From assembly GCA_009840285.1 (NCBI GenBank), contig VXOF01000050.1, forward strand, positions 1-41,206: 41,206 nt of DNA. The letters run 5' to 3'. Positions 106 through 9,138 of this stretch are shown here, one piece after another. The notes beneath the pieces were generated by a model, which worked only from the letters and a program-made list of their open reading frames with translations, was not told where the DNA came from and ran no database searches. Numbering within the stretch: the stretch's first letter is position 1; each line of letters starts with the position of its first letter. This stretch comes from Nitrospira sp. SB0662_bin_26 (GTDB lineage Bacteria > Nitrospirota > Nitrospiria > Nitrospirales > UBA8639). The translations under genes were made by a program, and so were the position numbers.

Positions 106-1611
106 TCAAAACTGCCGGACCCAGCGCATTTCCACGAGGTTGCGTTTGAAGTCCCACAGTTGGGCGTTGGATTCGCGGACCTGGTTGGAGAACGCGAGCT
201 GCGGGCTGAACCCGAACACGGTGATGGCGCGGTTCAGGAGTGTGGCCTGCAAGATGCGGGTCTGGTCCTTACGTGGCGTCGTGTTATCGGGGATGAACGG
301 AAACCACCCGGGTTCGAATTCCGTCCACCGGAACTCGGCGCTTAAGCCCACGGTAAAGCCCCCCGGCAAGGCCACGACCGTGCCCCCGCGCGTCCAGTAG
401 CCCGCACTGCTCCAGGCTCGAGACACGGCATCCTGCTGCTGATAGCCGACCAGGGCGTGGACCTGCACGGTCGGGAAAAGCACGTACCTGGCGCCGAGGG
501 AGAACACCATGAGCGGGCCTTCGAGTTGCTTCTGCTGCTGGAATTTGCGGTCGCTCCACTGGGCCCGGCCGCTCAGCCGCAGGCCCGCGAAGACCCGGTG
601 CTCCACTTCCAGGCGCGCGCCGTAATCATAGTTCAAGGAGGAGCCGCCCCACCAGCGCTGGCTCGCGGTGGCCAGAAGGCTCATCTCCGTATCCCGGGTG
701 ATCAGCCAGCGCGGCCCCGCGTACCCGGAGAGAAACGTCTGGTCCCACCGGCTCCCCTTGTACTCCCGGTGGTTGACGTTCAGACCCGAACGCAACCGCC
801 AGCGTTCGGCCAGCGGGTACTGGTATTCACCGCCCCCCCAGCCCACGAGGCCGATACCGGTACTGGCCCGGCCTGTGGCCCCCCGGCGAAATGGCAGCCC
901 TTGAATATAGATGAACTCCGCGTCCGACGCCGCGTTGATGTTCGTATCCGGGGCAATGGAGAAGCCGAACCACGCGTCCCAACGGCGCCGCGCCCGAATG
1001 ACCTTCAAGAGCCGGGTGACGTTCTCGACCAGGGTCTCCGGCGGCTTCCCGACCAAAGCCCGCTCGAAATGCTCGCGGGCCAGGTTGTCCTGCTGCTTGA
1101 AATAGAAGGCCAAGCCCAGTTCCAGGCGCACGCGCACCAAGTCGGGCCGGCGGATCAGGATGGACCGGAAGGACTCGATGGCCGCGTCCAGGAGCGCCTC
1201 CCGTTGCTCATCCGGGAGCCCGCGCGCCTGGGACCCGCGGCTGGCCGCCAGGCCCAGGAGAAACCGCACGTCCGTCTGGTCCGGGTGATCAGCGACCAGA
1301 GGCAACAGGATTTTCAGGGCCTCGGCAAACCGGTTGCGTTCGACCAGCGCGCGCGCGGTATTGACACGCGGATCCGACGACAGGTGAGACCGGCCGGGAG
1401 AAGCCGGGGCGCGGAGAGCAGGTGGGGCTTTCGATGGCTGATTCGACTCAGAAGGAGTAGGGGCACTTGAGGCAGAAGGGCGAAAATATTGCACACCTCC
1501 GCAGTCCCGGCAGGGTTCCGGCGGAGCCGCTGACGCGTCGCCGGACTCGGCCAAAGCCGACGGTGTATGGAACAGGAGCAGAACGATGAGCGTACAAAGC
1601 GCGTTCATCAT
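106..1611 (-). CDS. Slam-type surface lipoprotein assembly modifier (DUF560 barrel)
   Basis: 501 residues. An N-terminal signal peptide (about 1-21, ending ALAES) is followed by a Pro/Ser-rich linker with a CRDCGG motif. Helical TPR-like repeats occupy about 80-200 (ALVERNRFAEALKILLPLVA, a second helix pair around the LELGLAFYFKQQ motif). From about 210 to the end alternating hydrophobic strands form a predicted outer-membrane barrel that ends in Phe, as outer-membrane barrels usually do. TPR plus a 14-strand barrel is the Slam architecture; Slam proteins move lipoproteins to the cell surface. The gene upstream on the same strand encodes a lipoprotein with a TbpB-like C-terminus, a natural client. 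Tandem ATG codons start the ORF; no clear ribosome-binding site is visible. The assignment rests on architecture and context, not on an alignment. Confidence 0.75.
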   Translation of the reverse strand: MMNALCTLIVLLLFHTPSALAESGDASAAPPEPCRDCGGVQYFRPSASSAPTPSESNQPSKAPPALRAPASPGRSHLSSDPRVNTARALVERNRFAEALKILLPLVADHPDQTDVRFLLGLAASRGSQARGLPDEQREALLDAAIESFRSILIRRPDLVRVRLELGLAFYFKQQDNLAREHFERALVGKPPETLVENVTRLLKVIRARRRWDAWFGFSIAPDTNINAASDAEFIYIQGLPFRRGATGRASTGIGLVGWGGGEYQYPLAERWRLRSGLNVNHREYKGSRWDQTFLSGYAGPRWLITRDTEMSLLATASQRWWGGSSLNYDYGARLEVEHRVFAGLRLSGRAQWSDRKFQQQKQLEGPLMVFSLGARYVLFPTVQVHALVGYQQQDAVSRAWSSAGYWTRGGTVVALPGGFTVGLSAEFRWTEFEPGWFPFIPDNTTPRKDQTRILQATLLNRAITVFGFSPQLAFSNQVRESNAQLWDFKRNLVEMRWVRQF

Positions 1612-1619
1612 GACAGGGC

Positions 1620-1654
1620 AAAAAAGAAGGGCAGCTTTTGGGCTGCCCTTCTTT
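1620..1654 (-). terminator. Strong hairpin terminator or attenuator between lipoprotein and Slam gene
   Basis: A perfect 13-bp stem (1623-1635 with 1642-1654, loop TTTTGG) is followed on the minus strand by a T run. It lies between the lipoprotein stop and the Slam start only 9 bp upstream of that start, so Slam transcription depends on readthrough or a promoter inside the lipoprotein gene. Confidence 0.8.
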
Positions 1655-1698
1655 GATCCATAGCCCGCTAGGCGCGGACTTTTGATAGGCCAGAGACG

Positions 1699-3267
1699 TT
1701 ACTCCATCTGCTCACGCACACCGAAGGCGCCAGCCACCGAGCCGTTGGTGAACCCGGCGTTGAATTCGCCGACCGCGCTGCTCGGATACACGCTGTCATT
1801 ATCCTCCAGAGTGGCCGTCCCGGTCGCAGCAGTGGCGGTGCCATGGAAAGTCCCGCTGAGGGAACCATCGCCCACGCCTCCCTTGGCCATGCCGGAGAAG
1901 GTGCCATCGGACACGTCGATGTCACCCGACAAAGCCACCGACCACGCATTCGCCTCGCCGCCGGACAGCATGAAGTTGTTGATGGCGCCGGTGATGGAGT
2001 TGAGCATGTTGGCCGGGATGGTCCCGTCGGTATCGGTAGCGGAAACCTGCACCTGCCCGAACGTCGCCGTCAGGCTGGCATCCGCCCTGAAGTGGCCGGA
2101 GGTCGCCGAGGCCTCGGTCCCGTCCGGGTTGCTCACGCTGTAGACGTAGACGCCGACCGCATTGCCTTCGTAGCTCGCGCTCCCCGCAACCCCGCTAGCA
2201 ATGGCACCAGTGGGGGCAACCGACGAACCGGCGAAGGTTTCGACCTCGTTGTAGGTGAGCACGCCATCCTCGTCCGTCGTTCTCTTCAGCCAGAAGCCGT
2301 AATGCAGGTAGTCGGCATCCGGCACGTCGGAGGTGGCGCCCTTGTCGGGGACGAAGACCCAGTTGGCGCTGTTACCGATGACCTCGCCCTTGGCGTTGAA
2401 CGTGACGGTGCAGGCGGCAGTGCCCACGCACCTGTATGTGCCCTCGGCCCCGTTATAGGTGCCGTCGTGCAGGCCCTCGTCCACGCCCACGGTGTTCGGC
2501 TCGCCGTCCACAGGGTTGTCCTGGGTGTAGTTGAGCGTGCCGTTCATGGTCGAGCGCGCGAACATCAGGTTCGCATTCGCATCCCCTGTAAGGGTGATGT
2601 CCGCCGCGATGGCCAAGGCGTTGTTGACCTCGTCGCCAGTCGCCTCCACGCCGGTGGAGGAATCCACATCCAGCGCCTGCCCGGTTACCATCGCGAACGG
2701 CGTGGCTTTCGGCCCCTGGATGTCCGTCGCAACCAGCACAACCTCGGTCATCACTTCGCCGTCGTCATTCGCCTCCATGGTGCGGGTGAGCATCTGACGA
2801 CCGCCGCTCAACATCTCGGCGACTGCGAACTTGGGATCGTCGTCGCCCGCGTTGTCGGGGTCGGTGATCTCGATCTTGGCAGCCTCGCCGCGAGCACGGC
2901 TGATCATCATGGTCATGGCATCGTCAGACGTGTCGTCGGCGGTGGTCGAGCCGTCCGCGTCGGTCCTGGCACTACCGCCGAGCCCGGTCCCAACGTCATT
3001 CGTTCCCGACGCTGTTTCGGCCTCCGTTGCGATAGCTTTCCTCTTGGTATCCGCCCTTGCCGTTAACTCTTCAGTTGAGGGACCCGGAGGCGGTATCGGT
3101 ACACAATCGCCATCAGCATTCCTTTGCTGGCCATCTGGGCACGGCATCGGCATCGGATCCGGCCCCGGATCCGGCGTCACCATTGTCGTCCCGCCGTTGC
3201 CGCCACACCCAGCCAATGCCAAGGCGGCTATCACGATGAAATACAAGAAGAATCGTTTCGTGTCCAT
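1699..3267 (-). CDS. Surface-exposed lipoprotein with TbpB-like C-terminal barrel (putative Slam substrate)
   Basis: 522 residues. The signal peptide carries a lipobox, LAGC, with Cys20 as the lipidated residue, then a Pro/Asp/Gly-rich linker containing a likely disulphide pair (CPDG and DGDC). The mature protein is acidic and rich in Gly, Thr and Ala. Its C-terminal 130 residues contain beta-hairpin repeats ending in VGEFNAGFTNGSVAGAFGV, which resembles the small C-terminal barrel of TbpB and other Slam-dependent lipoproteins. AAAGGAG lies 10 bases before the ATG, supporting this start. The Slam gene follows on the same strand, separated by a strong terminator. The ligand is unknown; metal, haem or host-protein binding would be speculation. 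Confidence 0.7.
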   Translation of the reverse strand: MDTKRFFLYFIVIAALALAGCGGNGGTTMVTPDPGPDPMPMPCPDGQQRNADGDCVPIPPPGPSTEELTARADTKRKAIATEAETASGTNDVGTGLGGSARTDADGSTTADDTSDDAMTMMISRARGEAAKIEITDPDNAGDDDPKFAVAEMLSGGRQMLTRTMEANDDGEVMTEVVLVATDIQGPKATPFAMVTGQALDVDSSTGVEATGDEVNNALAIAADITLTGDANANLMFARSTMNGTLNYTQDNPVDGEPNTVGVDEGLHDGTYNGAEGTYRCVGTAACTVTFNAKGEVIGNSANWVFVPDKGATSDVPDADYLHYGFWLKRTTDEDGVLTYNEVETFAGSSVAPTGAIASGVAGSASYEGNAVGVYVYSVSNPDGTEASATSGHFRADASLTATFGQVQVSATDTDGTIPANMLNSITGAINNFMLSGGEANAWSVALSGDIDVSDGTFSGMAKGGVGDGSLSGTFHGTATAATGTATLEDNDSVYPSSAVGEFNAGFTNGSVAGAFGVREQME

Positions 3268-3672
3268 GTTGTCTCGTCTCCTTTGATTGATAAGTTATAG
3301 AGAGTAGGTCAAGTATCCTATTCGCGTGTTTCGCACGATTCTACTTTCGGTGGGTGGGTAAGTCAAGCCTTCCTCTCTTTAAAATCTCTTTGATTGAACA
3401 GCTAAATTGAAGATTGGAAAGATGTGGACAGCATAAGAGCAAAAAGCTGTTTTGGATTGTACGAATGACGGATGGGTAAGTCAAGCCCTTTGTATTTCTT
3501 TTTTTATTGTTTTTTTGTTGGTGGTCTTGTCGATTGTGCGATAAGGGCAGGTGCGGTCACGCTGAACATTGTCAATCCGGTTCATTATCGGGAATGACCA
3601 TTCCGGTATGTGAGGGGGTACGCCGGCGTAAGTAGGCAGGAGTAAGTGGGAATGCAAAGGGGGAAAGAAACT
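3268..3672. repeat. AT-richer intergenic region with a 15-bp direct repeat
   Basis: The motif TGGGTAAGTCAAGCC occurs at about 3355-3369 and again at about 3473-3487, upstream of the lipoprotein gene. A related GTAGGTCAAGT lies near 3305. The region is less GC-rich than its surroundings and holds no convincing gene. The copies may be regulator sites for the lipoprotein promoter or traces of duplication. Confidence 0.5.
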
Positions 3673-3774: not shown

Positions 3775-4031
3775 TGTCATCCTCGACAGCTTTCGTCGGG
3801 GATCCAGGGTTTAGCTTTTTCCTAGTTCCCAAGAATAAAGACACTGGATTCCCGCTAAAAGCTTGCGGGAATGACAGAAGGAGGATTGGCGCCCGGGGAG
3901 GGACCAAAACCACTCTACCCCACCCGCATTTCCTCTTCGGAAAAAGTTCCCGTCCTTACAAAGGAGGGGGAAAAGACACTGGCTCCGCGCCCTCGATCGG
4001 GGTCAAGGGCAGGCTCTCGCAAGGATGACAG
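3775..4031. repeat. Family A palindromic repeats (paired unit plus long arm)
   Basis: 3775-3876 is a head-to-head unit bounded by TGTCAT and ATGACA: a TCCTCGAC...GTCGGGGA arm, a T-rich centre, then a TTCCCGC...GCGGGAA arm. 3973-4030 is a longer arm with an inserted CCCTCGATCGGGGTC segment. No gene is supported between 3268 and 4037. Confidence 0.85.
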
Positions 4032-5335: not shown

Positions 5336-5345
5336 ATAAAGGAAA

Positions 5346-5714
5346 AGGCACTGGATCCTCGCGTTCGCAAGGATGACAGAAAGAAAAAACGTAAAGAGAA
5401 AGGCACTGGATCCTCGCCCTCGATCGGGGTCAAGGGCAGGCTCTCGCAAGGATGACAGAAGCAGAAGACAAGGATGCCGCCTCTCCTGTCATCCCCGACT
5501 CGATCGGGGATCCAGGGTCGTTGCTTTTGCTTTTATCTGTCATCCTCGACAGCTTTCGTCGGGGATCCAGGGTTTTTACTTTTTTCATGCGTGAGGGAAA
5601 AGACACTGGATTCCCGCTAGATCCCCGATTACAAACGTCGGGGACAGGCCTGCGGGAATGACAGCAAGAGGATGCGAGTCTTCGGGACTGCGGCGCAGCC
5701 ACGCCCGAAGGCAG
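5346..5714. repeat. Family A cluster with nested copy, plus family B fragment
   Basis: At least five arms lie here: 5346-5383, 5404-5459, 5488-5518 and the paired unit 5538-5663. In the last, the right arm TTCCCGC...GCGGGAA is interrupted by another palindrome (CCCCGA...TCGGGG), so one repeat sits in another. 5681-5714 is a fragment of the 3' end of family B. No gene is supported in 5336-5719. Confidence 0.8.
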
Positions 5715-5719
5715 GAAGC

Positions 5720-6010
5720 TCAGGATGTCAAGGCGTTGGCAACGACTTGCGGATTCTTTGCTGCGACCCGCAGTAAGGCACGGGCCGGTCCTTCCGGTTT
5801 TCGTCGCCCTTGCTCCCAGTTCTGGAGTGTCGCCACGCTGACGCCGATCATCAGCGCGAATTCTTGCTGAGACTTCTTCAACCGGGCACGAATCGTCTGC
5901 ACGTCTTCAGGCCGGAAATCGGTCGCCCGTCCGGGCTTCAGGTGACCCCGGCGAATAGCCCCTGCCTGCTTCACACTGGCGACTAAACGTTCAAAGTCCT
6001 TTTGCTTCAC
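5720..6010 (-). CDS. XRE-family antitoxin (HigA/NadS-like)
   Basis: 96 residues. A helix-turn-helix of the Cro/C1 type covers about 37-75, with the recognition region SQQEFALMIGVSVATLQNWE and the following QGRRKPEGPARALL typical of this antitoxin family. The ATG overlaps the end of the toxin gene by four bases, so toxin precedes antitoxin as in higBA. The protein should neutralise the RelE-like toxin and repress its own promoter. The N-terminal 30 residues probably form the toxin contact. Confidence 0.88.
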   Translation of the reverse strand: MKQKDFERLVASVKQAGAIRRGHLKPGRATDFRPEDVQTIRARLKKSQQEFALMIGVSVATLQNWEQGRRKPEGPARALLRVAAKNPQVVANALTS

Positions 6011-6324
6011 TTGAATTCCTCCTTGATTAACCGTCGCAAGGTTGCCAATTGTTTGGACGTTAGATTTTCCTGGTCATTCTTGCGGTATACCATCAACATA
6101 TAGCAGGTTTCGGACATCGCTTCCCAATAATAGATAGCTCGCAATCCACTCCTCTTCCCCATACCGGCCCGGTGCCACCGGAGTTTGCGCAGTCCTCCGG
6201 AACCTTGAATCAGATTGCCCTGTGTGGGCCGGAGCAGCAGAGTTAACTGAAGCTGCCTGTATTCCTCCAATGAGAGTTCACGTTCGACGTCCTCCGTGAA
6301 GATGGGAGTCTCTATAAACCTCAT
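6007..6324 (-). CDS. RelE/HigB-family toxin (probable mRNA interferase)
   Basis: 105 residues, the usual length. Features of the RelE/HigB fold are visible: an N-terminal strand with FIETPIFT, the segment GNLIQGSGGLRKLRW, then KRSGLRAIYYW and the C-terminal strand CYMLMVYRKN followed by the helix SKQLATLRRLIKEEF. Family members cleave mRNA on the ribosome. The antitoxin gene overlaps the 3' end. There is no clear ribosome-binding site before the ATG; CCAATG/CATTGG arms at 6339-6344 and 6367-6372 could be an operator. The reading frame is intact, so this locus should be functional, unlike the second one at 9.7 kb. Confidence 0.88.
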   Translation of the reverse strand: MRFIETPIFTEDVERELSLEEYRQLQLTLLLRPTQGNLIQGSGGLRKLRWHRAGMGKRSGLRAIYYWEAMSETCYMLMVYRKNDQENLTSKQLATLRRLIKEEFK

Positions 6325-6699: not shown

Positions 6700-9138
6700 C
6701 TAAAAGTAGAAGCGGCTGAGGATGCCGAAGGTGCGGGGTTGGCCCACGCGATACGCCATCCGGGCGGCGCCGTTGCGTTCCCGGTCGAACGAAAGCTGCG
6801 GGTTTTCGTCCGTGATGTTCTTGATGTAGAACATGACTTCCCACGTGTCGTACAGCAGGCCCGTGTTGAGATTGAGCAGATGGTACGCGTCCAGTTCCAT
6901 CTGATCCCGGAAGTTGTCGGACGCCATGTCCGCTCCCGTCAGACCTGCAATAAGTCTGGACGGGTATGGCGTACTGTCCTGATCGCCGGGTTGGGTGAAC
7001 TGACTCCCGACGTACTGCCAGGAGGCCGTCACGTAACTCTCTTCGGACTGGAAGAGGCCCGGGAACGTGTACGTGGCCACCGCGGAAAGCTGCCAGTTGG
7101 GCACGGACGGGATGCGGTTGCCGTCCTTGATGCCCGACACCACGGACCCGTCCACCGCGCTGGTTATCGTGGAATCGAATTCCGCCTCCACGTAGCTTCC
7201 GGCAAACGTGACCAGTAAGGCATCCGTGGGATGCACGGCGAACTCCAGTTCCCCGCCCATGCTGTGCGCCTCGGGCACGTTGACGGTCACCCGCGATGAA
7301 CATTCACCGGCCACCACGTTTACGCCCAGGTTGCTGATGTCGGCATAGTACACGGACGCGTTCATCGTCACTTTGTCGTATGAGGACTTGAGGCCGATTT
7401 CGTAGTTCCACAGGGTCTCGTCCTTGAACCGCTGGAACCCCCGGTAGGTTTCATAGTCCGCTCCGCACAGCGGCACGTTCAATGGATCGTTCACGCCGCC
7501 CAGCCGGAACCCCCGCGACGCTTGCGCGTTCAGGGCCACGCGGTCGGTCACGTCGTAGTTGATCATGAACCGGGGCGTGAAGCCGTTGGAGGACACCGTG
7601 ACGGCCTGGTTCTGCGCCGCCGAGTTTGAAAAGTTCCCGCCCGATCTGAAGGTCTTGTCTTCTTCCCAATCGTACCAGCGCAACCCGGCGGTCACCCCGA
7701 GACGGTCGAAGAGCGTATAGGTCGCCTCGCCGAACACGGCGATCTGGCTGAGGTCGTAGGTCAAGTCCGATACATAGGGCGAATCCGTGGTGACAAACCC
7801 ATTCCTGACACCGTCTATGGGACCGATCGGACTGCCGGCCCCCACGTATGTCAAGTCCCACCCGGGCGTGGGCAGACGCTGGGAATAGTCGCGTTTGATA
7901 TTGGAGTAAAAGACGCCTGCCTGCCATTGGAACGGGCTGTTATCGGTGGAAGCGACCCGCACTTCATGGGTCATCTGTTCCACTTCGGTGGTGTCCCGCA
8001 GGTTGGACGGCAGGAGCACGCCTTCCGGTGGAAATCCGATATCGACCGCCACACTCCCGGCCAGCGCGCTGGAGTCCCGGCTGACCAGCAGGTTGCGCTT
8101 GGTATAGCTGGCGACGTAGGTCGCCTCGACGCGGTCGTTCGGGTTCCATTTGATCGTGTTGTCGAGGAGCATGGTTTCGTCTTCGAAGGCTTCTTCCAGC
8201 AACAGGAACTGCTGCCGCTTGCCGAGCTGCACGCGGGGCCGCGTGGTGGAGTACGGGTTGGCGTACAGGTTGAAGAGCTCTTCGCGGTTGAACCCGTCCA
8301 TGTCGATGTTCTGATAGACCAGCCGGGGGGTGATGGTTATGTTGTCGGTGGGTTGCCACAACACGGACGCGCGCCCGCCGAAGCGGCCGCCGTCGTTGAC
8401 GTTGTCGTCCGTTTCGCCCGTGACCCGCAAGGCGTCGATGAACCCGCCGTACCTGGTGCCGTAGCCCACCACGCGTATGGCCGCGCTGTTGCCCAGGGGC
8501 GCGTTGAACGCCGCCTTGACGTTCCCGCCGGCCGAACCGCTGTCGATGGTGTTCAGGTCGAATTGCGTCCTCACGTCCTTCATGCCGAGTTGCGGCTTGT
8601 TGGTGACGTACCGCACGGTGCCGCCGATGGAGCCGGAGCCGAACAGCGTGCCTTGCGGGCCCCGCAGGGTTTCCACGCGCTGGACGTCATACAGGTCCAG
8701 GTCCGGGGTGAACAGCGAGATCGCGATCGGCGTATCGTCCAGATAGACGCCCACCTGTTCCTTGACGCCGGGCTGGTCGCGCACGATCTGGCCGGATGAG
8801 ATGCCGCGGATATTGACCACGCTCTGGCCGGGTCCCAGGTTCTGGATGTTCAGGCCGGCGATGTTGCGGGAGAGGTTTTCCAGGTTGAAGTTGTTCAGCC
8901 GCAGGATGTCCGCTTCTTCCTGCACGTTGACCGAAAAGGGCACGTCCATGACCGTTTCGGTCCGCCTCGTGGCCGTGACCACGACTTCCTCCAGGCGTTG
9001 GATATCCGACGCGCTCGCGCTTTGGGACGTGCCCGCGTCACTTTGTGCGACGGCTTCCCCCGCACCCAGCACTATTGCCAGCGGTAGTAGTGCGAGATAT
9101 TGTATTGTCATTTTCAAGCATGCTTGTTGTTTCTTCAT
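6700..9138 (-). CDS. TonB-dependent outer-membrane receptor
   Basis: 812 residues. A signal peptide (about 1-31, ending AVAQ) is followed by a TonB-box-like segment EEVVVTATRRTETVMDVP. The plug domain covers about 55-175 with the conserved LRGPQGTLFGSGSIGGTVRYVT. The remainder is a 22-strand barrel ending in the aromatic LSRFYF. Such receptors import siderophores, haem, cobalamin or glycans using TonB energy; the substrate cannot be told from the sequence. The gene stands alone on its strand between repeat blocks. The Slam and TbpB-like genes 3 kb away recall TbpA/TbpB/Slam systems, but they are not in one operon. Confidence 0.93.
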   Translation of the reverse strand: MKKQQACLKMTIQYLALLPLAIVLGAGEAVAQSDAGTSQSASASDIQRLEEVVVTATRRTETVMDVPFSVNVQEEADILRLNNFNLENLSRNIAGLNIQNLGPGQSVVNIRGISSGQIVRDQPGVKEQVGVYLDDTPIAISLFTPDLDLYDVQRVETLRGPQGTLFGSGSIGGTVRYVTNKPQLGMKDVRTQFDLNTIDSGSAGGNVKAAFNAPLGNSAAIRVVGYGTRYGGFIDALRVTGETDDNVNDGGRFGGRASVLWQPTDNITITPRLVYQNIDMDGFNREELFNLYANPYSTTRPRVQLGKRQQFLLLEEAFEDETMLLDNTIKWNPNDRVEATYVASYTKRNLLVSRDSSALAGSVAVDIGFPPEGVLLPSNLRDTTEVEQMTHEVRVASTDNSPFQWQAGVFYSNIKRDYSQRLPTPGWDLTYVGAGSPIGPIDGVRNGFVTTDSPYVSDLTYDLSQIAVFGEATYTLFDRLGVTAGLRWYDWEEDKTFRSGGNFSNSAAQNQAVTVSSNGFTPRFMINYDVTDRVALNAQASRGFRLGGVNDPLNVPLCGADYETYRGFQRFKDETLWNYEIGLKSSYDKVTMNASVYYADISNLGVNVVAGECSSRVTVNVPEAHSMGGELEFAVHPTDALLVTFAGSYVEAEFDSTITSAVDGSVVSGIKDGNRIPSVPNWQLSAVATYTFPGLFQSEESYVTASWQYVGSQFTQPGDQDSTPYPSRLIAGLTGADMASDNFRDQMELDAYHLLNLNTGLLYDTWEVMFYIKNITDENPQLSFDRERNGAARMAYRVGQPRTFGILSRFYF

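Follow-up and report, generated by a model that had tools for sequence, protein, structure and literature searches.

Slam (T11SS) systems have been described across Proteobacteria (PMC5449769, PMC8406197, PMC12282271), the only bacteria that the surveys consulted deal with. In animal pathogens, they are studied as surface-display systems and as vaccine targets. Well-known examples are the Slam1–TbpB and Slam2–HpuA pairs of Neisseria (PMC5449769, PMC8406197), with which the cassette described here shares a protein consisting of a TPR domain and a 14-strand DUF560 barrel, encoded beside a lipoprotein with a TbpB-like barrel. It differs from them in being hosted by Nitrospirota, in occurring as a single copy, and in its order of client, terminator and then Slam. 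A comparable arrangement is NilB/NilC of Xenorhabdus (PMC8406197, PMC9100927), where an animal symbiont likewise pairs a member of the Slam family with a lipoprotein; a demonstrated role in host colonization sets the Xenorhabdus pair apart. In a text search, neither PMC8406197 nor PMC12282271 mentioned Nitrospirota or sponges, and an open-access literature search returned no paper linking Slam with either (an earlier mention elsewhere is possible). What is new here is the phylum, together with a regulatory layout that is conserved; Slam itself is a known kind of system.

Host and distribution

The window (the whole stretch of DNA analysed, 41,206 nt) belongs to a 2.2-Mb genome whose RpoB shares 97–99% identity with the RpoB of Nitrospirales MAGs, Nitrospira sp. 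bin75 among them, and a genome search assigns this genome and G018 to one genus. By these sequence comparisons the host is a member of the Nitrospirota, in the GTDB genus containing "Nitrospira sp. bin75" (Ca. Nitrosymbion), and a relative of nitrite oxidizers, in line with the suggestion in the preliminary description that the mix of genes hinted at a phylum other than Proteobacteria. According to PMC11812461, which names it Ca. Nitrosymbion, the genus bin75 is made up chiefly of MAGs from sponges; coral supplied one MAG and cold seeps two.

Of the 14 genus members, 10 have a strong PF04575 match; in the remaining genera sampled from the family and order, the match is weak or absent, never strong. 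PF04575 proteins elsewhere in Nitrospirota (L097–L116) share the phylum and the family match with the window's Slam, but these matches are mostly weak, the proteins fall in a separate part of the sequence tree, and no TbpB-like gene was seen upstream of them.

Table 1. Features of the cassette and its surroundings (positions in the window).
Feature	Position	Strand	Size and basis
Slam (SlipAM/DUF560) translocator	106-1611	-	501 aa; PF04575, AlphaFold2 model
Intrinsic terminator hairpin	1623-1654, T-tract 1620-1626	-	fold z -4.3, covariation, comparison with control pairs
TbpB-like lipoprotein, putative Slam client	1699-3267	-	522 aa; translation, Foldseek, PF01298 in relatives
Proximal client promoter-like site, TTGACT-17-TAGAAT	3338-3366	-	scan; similar distance in several relatives
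Distal client promoter-like site, TTGACT-17-TACAAT	3456-3484	-	scan; within 33-nt repeat
RelE-type toxin gene	6007-6324	-	PF06296
TonB-dependent receptor	6700-9138	-	siderophore/haem type by weak subfamily matches

The Slam protein

A Slam had been proposed within 106–3267, with a 14-strand barrel expected on structure prediction, and both proposals hold. The PF04575 (DUF560) profile matches the 501-aa ORF at 106–1611 far above its cut-off (E=6.6e-21; 75.5 bits versus a cut-off of 22, Pfam profile search) and is covered over nearly its whole length, with TPR matches lying N-terminal to it: TPR_16 above its cut-off, and TPR_Slam (E=7.5e-6) below its own. In a profile search, this was the sole PF04575 gene of the 2.2-Mb genome. 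Its product is 83% identical to a Slam of Nitrospira sp. bin75 across 468 residues, and the family is conserved among relatives, ending in a C-terminal phenylalanine. The AlphaFold2 model, built from nine sequences (pLDDT 75, pTM 0.62), has 7 helices followed by 14 long strands, laid out as a signal peptide, a low-confidence linker, a TPR domain (~81–207) and a 14-strand barrel (210–500). Published Slams are built in this way, from a TPR domain and a 14-strand barrel (PMC5449769). When the Slam model was compared with the PDB by Foldseek, the matches were generic TPR/barrel exporters and porins, with no Slam among them. Judged by profile and model together, the 501-aa protein is a genuine Slam outer-membrane translocator, for which translocation itself is predicted. 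No Shine–Dalgarno sequence is visible ahead of its ATG, where the T-tract of the hairpin occupies that place.

The putative client

The adjoining lipoprotein begins with MDTKRFFLYFIVIAALALAGC, in which a lipobox, LALAGC, can be read by eye from the translation (LAGC being residues 18–21), and ends with NAGFTNGSVAGAFG, in agreement with the earlier quotation. It comprises a variable N-terminal portion and a C-terminal handle plus β-barrel at ~266–519. The predicted structure has a mean pLDDT of 71, high for the C-terminal barrel and poor for much of the N-terminal half. No profile in Pfam or NCBIfam matched the protein, PF01298 and NF041636 included. PDB sequence searches with the client and Slam profiles also produced nothing relevant, making structure comparison necessary. 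With Foldseek, the top 15 solved structures were exclusively TbpB, a Haemophilus haemophore and an fHbp chimera, all of which we take to be Slam-client folds. TbpB was matched at E 3.2e-5 and the TM-score reached at most 0.44 (TbpB C-lobe), a modest value that demonstrates a common barrel fold, not transferrin binding. By these matches the C-terminal barrel corresponds to the 8-strand barrel of TbpB-like proteins, and the model leaves the exact strand count approximate. The model further suggests a single handle-plus-barrel unit; TbpB proper, the transferrin receptor, has two lobes, binds transferrin and is paired with TbpA.

In predicted fold and C-terminal motif, the protein resembles the lipoproteins covered by NF041636 (slam_lipo) and PF01298 (TbpB_B_D), but at the sequence level it lies below detection, while relatives and a second lipoprotein of the same genome match weakly. 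Among 18 members of the lipoprotein family, 3 match PF01298 (TbpB barrel), the best at 2.7e-4. The missing match of the window protein is a matter of model sensitivity, and such a match is not a defining trait of clients. Of the label "TbpB-like" given in the preliminary description, the fold stands and the sequence-level part does not, as no Pfam TbpB model matches the window protein; the proposal that the C-terminal motif fits a Slam client agrees with the best solved-structure matches of the predicted model. Judged by sequence and model, the lipoprotein is probably the client of the adjoining Slam. The pairing recurs across phyla: a client adjoins Slam in 10 genus cassettes and in other MAGs as well. 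Our guess is that the ligand is a sponge-derived nutrient or surface.

A conserved hairpin between client and Slam

The 94-nt stretch from the client stop to the Slam start folds at -38.2 kcal/mol (z = -4.3), and 0 of 200 shuffles were as good. It contains a perfect 13-bp stem with a loop of 6, plus a T-tract; the hairpin begins 44 nt past the client stop and finishes 11 nt short of the Slam ATG. A standard terminator scan of the window missed it, probably because its rule treats the first T's as stem, and a separate custom scan, whose rule passes ~0.7% of shuffled intergenic stretches, detected it. We rejected the idea of a genome-wide repeat, as a search of all 2.2 Mb of the genome found a single copy of the hairpin core.

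The order lipoprotein, hairpin terminator and Slam on one strand, noted from the sequence at the outset, is present in the window and in all ten genus cassettes: each of the 10 client–Slam pairs has a hairpin and T-tract 3′ of the client stop. Other same-strand gene pairs from these loci served as controls: 1/23 of them had a terminator, versus 8/8 callable client–Slam pairs, and an alignment of the ten cassettes revealed compensatory changes in 7 of 14 stem pairs. When other phyla were added under the same rule, 18 of 21 client–Slam pairs had a terminator; there the stem sequence varies, and its position and the T-tract are mostly kept. Several cassettes also have a small second hairpin upstream. 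Among broader proteobacterial client–Slam pairs, where the upstream genes were called clients by reading their C-termini, ~5/14 had a terminator and several others were overlapping or tightly packed. A terminator unique to this Slam branch was accordingly rejected.

Promoter-like sites and separated genes

Of the genus cassettes, 7/10 have sigma-70-like sites ahead of the client, and several of these have two, at ~-100 and -217. A strict consensus scan, which demands T as the final base of the second hexamer, found none in the 300 nt ahead of Slam in any of the 10 cassettes; a promoter type outside the consensus scan could serve Slam. In the window, both client sites are contained in a 33-nt direct repeat (3337–3369 and 3455–3487, spacing 118 nt), and paired sites resembling them were seen in several relatives.

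In some relatives, the two genes lie apart. At L008 (genome G005), the client retains its hairpin with no Slam downstream, and the single Slam of this genome lies away from it on C40, the same place in G025 being read as L083. This orphan Slam (L036/L083) has neither client nor terminator, and carries TTGACT-17-TATAAG upstream. A second orphan Slam, L085, has a promoter-like site of the same kind. These sites were found by eye and are not scored by the strict scan. A pyrimidine-rich tract persists ahead of the orphan Slams. A client that keeps its hairpin and an orphan Slam that bears a promoter-like site fit a cassette Slam that depends on transcripts passing the client terminator.

Proposed mechanism and alternatives

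The locus is likely to be a type 11 secretion (Slam) cassette, in which the client is displayed on the surface via Slam and readthrough of the terminator gives much client and little Slam. Underlying this are the identity and predicted fold of the two proteins, their adjacency, the conservation and covariation of the hairpin, and promoter-like sites found ahead of the client only. From these we infer surface exposure, dependence on Slam, readthrough and the resulting client:Slam ratio. The lipoprotein would be made with its lipobox signal and then lipidated, after which the Slam barrel would pass it, recognizing the C-terminal TbpB-like barrel, so that it would end up lipid-anchored and facing outward. 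The promoter region ahead of the client would drive both client and Slam. Most transcripts would end at the hairpin past the client, and a minority would read through to yield few Slam molecules, which would suffice because the translocon works repeatedly. The original suggestion of high lipoprotein and low Slam output through readthrough appears well supported by comparative anatomy, namely terminator conservation, the promoter-like sites and L008. If so, the conserved terminator would offer a simple, testable rule for client/translocon balance.

An unlikely alternative makes the hairpin merely the client's terminator and Slam a separate unit, driven by a promoter of its own that overlaps the client 3′ end or the hairpin. 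The orphan Slams with promoter-like sites indicate that independent transcription is workable in the genus, but the 300 nt ahead of the cassette Slams were empty in the scan, the stem in the window stops 11 nt before the ATG, and transcripts from any promoter before that would end at this terminator as well. We give slightly less credence to a hairpin that sets the client:Slam ratio as a regulated attenuator or an mRNA processing or stability element, and not by passive readthrough. The small second hairpin and the strong conservation of the main stem would suit such an element, but comparison of the sequences by eye revealed no recurring fold that would act as a competing antiterminator, on which ground an antiterminator or riboswitch was rejected, and divergence of the stem across phyla with persistence of position and T-tract is what a plain terminator would give.

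The identity of the players can be doubted as well. An unrelated, periplasm-facing lipoprotein that adjoins Slam by chance would explain the absence of a sequence-level family match, yet the top Foldseek matches, the PF01298 matches of relatives and the recurrence of adjacency to Slam across phyla make this very improbable. Even harder to credit is a misbinned contig of truly proteobacterial origin. Its one attraction is that the Slams cluster with proteobacterial ones and not with the other Nitrospirota PF04575 proteins. Against it, the single-contig genus genomes G022 and G023 both carry Slam with an adjoining client, so that contamination is not the explanation, and in one single-contig genome a copy of the window's radical-SAM gene (86% identical) lies ~2.4 kb from Slam (L089). 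We rejected misbinning on these two observations. The readthrough cassette remains our preferred reading.

Slam phylogeny

In a tree of 87 sequences, built with a quick method, the Slams of the genus form one group (support 96) nested in a fully supported 36-member group that also holds Slams of Alphaproteobacteria, Defluviicoccus, a gammaproteobacterium, Nitrospinota and two 'Chloroflexi' bins, a grouping favoured by our having picked the non-Nitrospirota members for carrying a related client. Its departure from the species tree suggests lateral transfer of Slams between phyla. Chloroflexi were not accepted as a host phylum of this Slam branch, as the bins may be mixed. The record titles of the non-Nitrospirota members name no host, and these MAG series are presumably from sponges. 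We put forward, tentatively and with somewhat more doubt than confidence, a sponge-symbiont-specific Slam/lipoprotein branch that would have spread laterally among Nitrospirota, Nitrospinota, Alpha- and Gammaproteobacteria with a fixed client–terminator–Slam layout, displaying host-interaction lipoproteins that aid life in the sponge. That a mainly sponge-dwelling Nitrospirota genus carries a complete cassette, and shares its Slam branch with further MAG lineages, suggests that Slam lipoproteins are a widespread means of living with animals.

Other lipoproteins and neighbouring features

The same genome (G000) encodes another lipoprotein whose C-terminus is TbpB-like, on contig C49, a different contig from that of Slam (L152:11257-12429, minus strand), with weak matches to PF01298 (E=6.3e-4) and NF041636 slam_lipo (E=2.5e-5); three small, related lipoproteins are encoded close by. 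Its presence raises the possibility that the single Slam serves clients in trans, and by its sequence the C49 lipoprotein is a possible client of this kind.

Within the window, the TonB-dependent receptor gene lies 3.4 kb upstream of the client, and its product has a weak match to a Tbp/Lbp receptor model. The order receptor, 305-aa gene and client is also found in one relative, L008, and any functional tie of the receptor or the 305-aa gene to the client is putative. Short dispersed repeats, CACTGGATTCCCGC...GGGAATGACAG, occur at 3775–4031 and 5337–5673, and similar-looking ones follow the L008 client. Just past the stop codon of Slam and close to where the contig ends, positions 67–97 consist of a long G run followed by C-rich sequence, possibly an assembly artefact. 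The RelE-type toxin gene lies between the client and the receptor gene; toxin–antitoxin modules are listed among the genes unique to the genus bin75 (PMC11812461).
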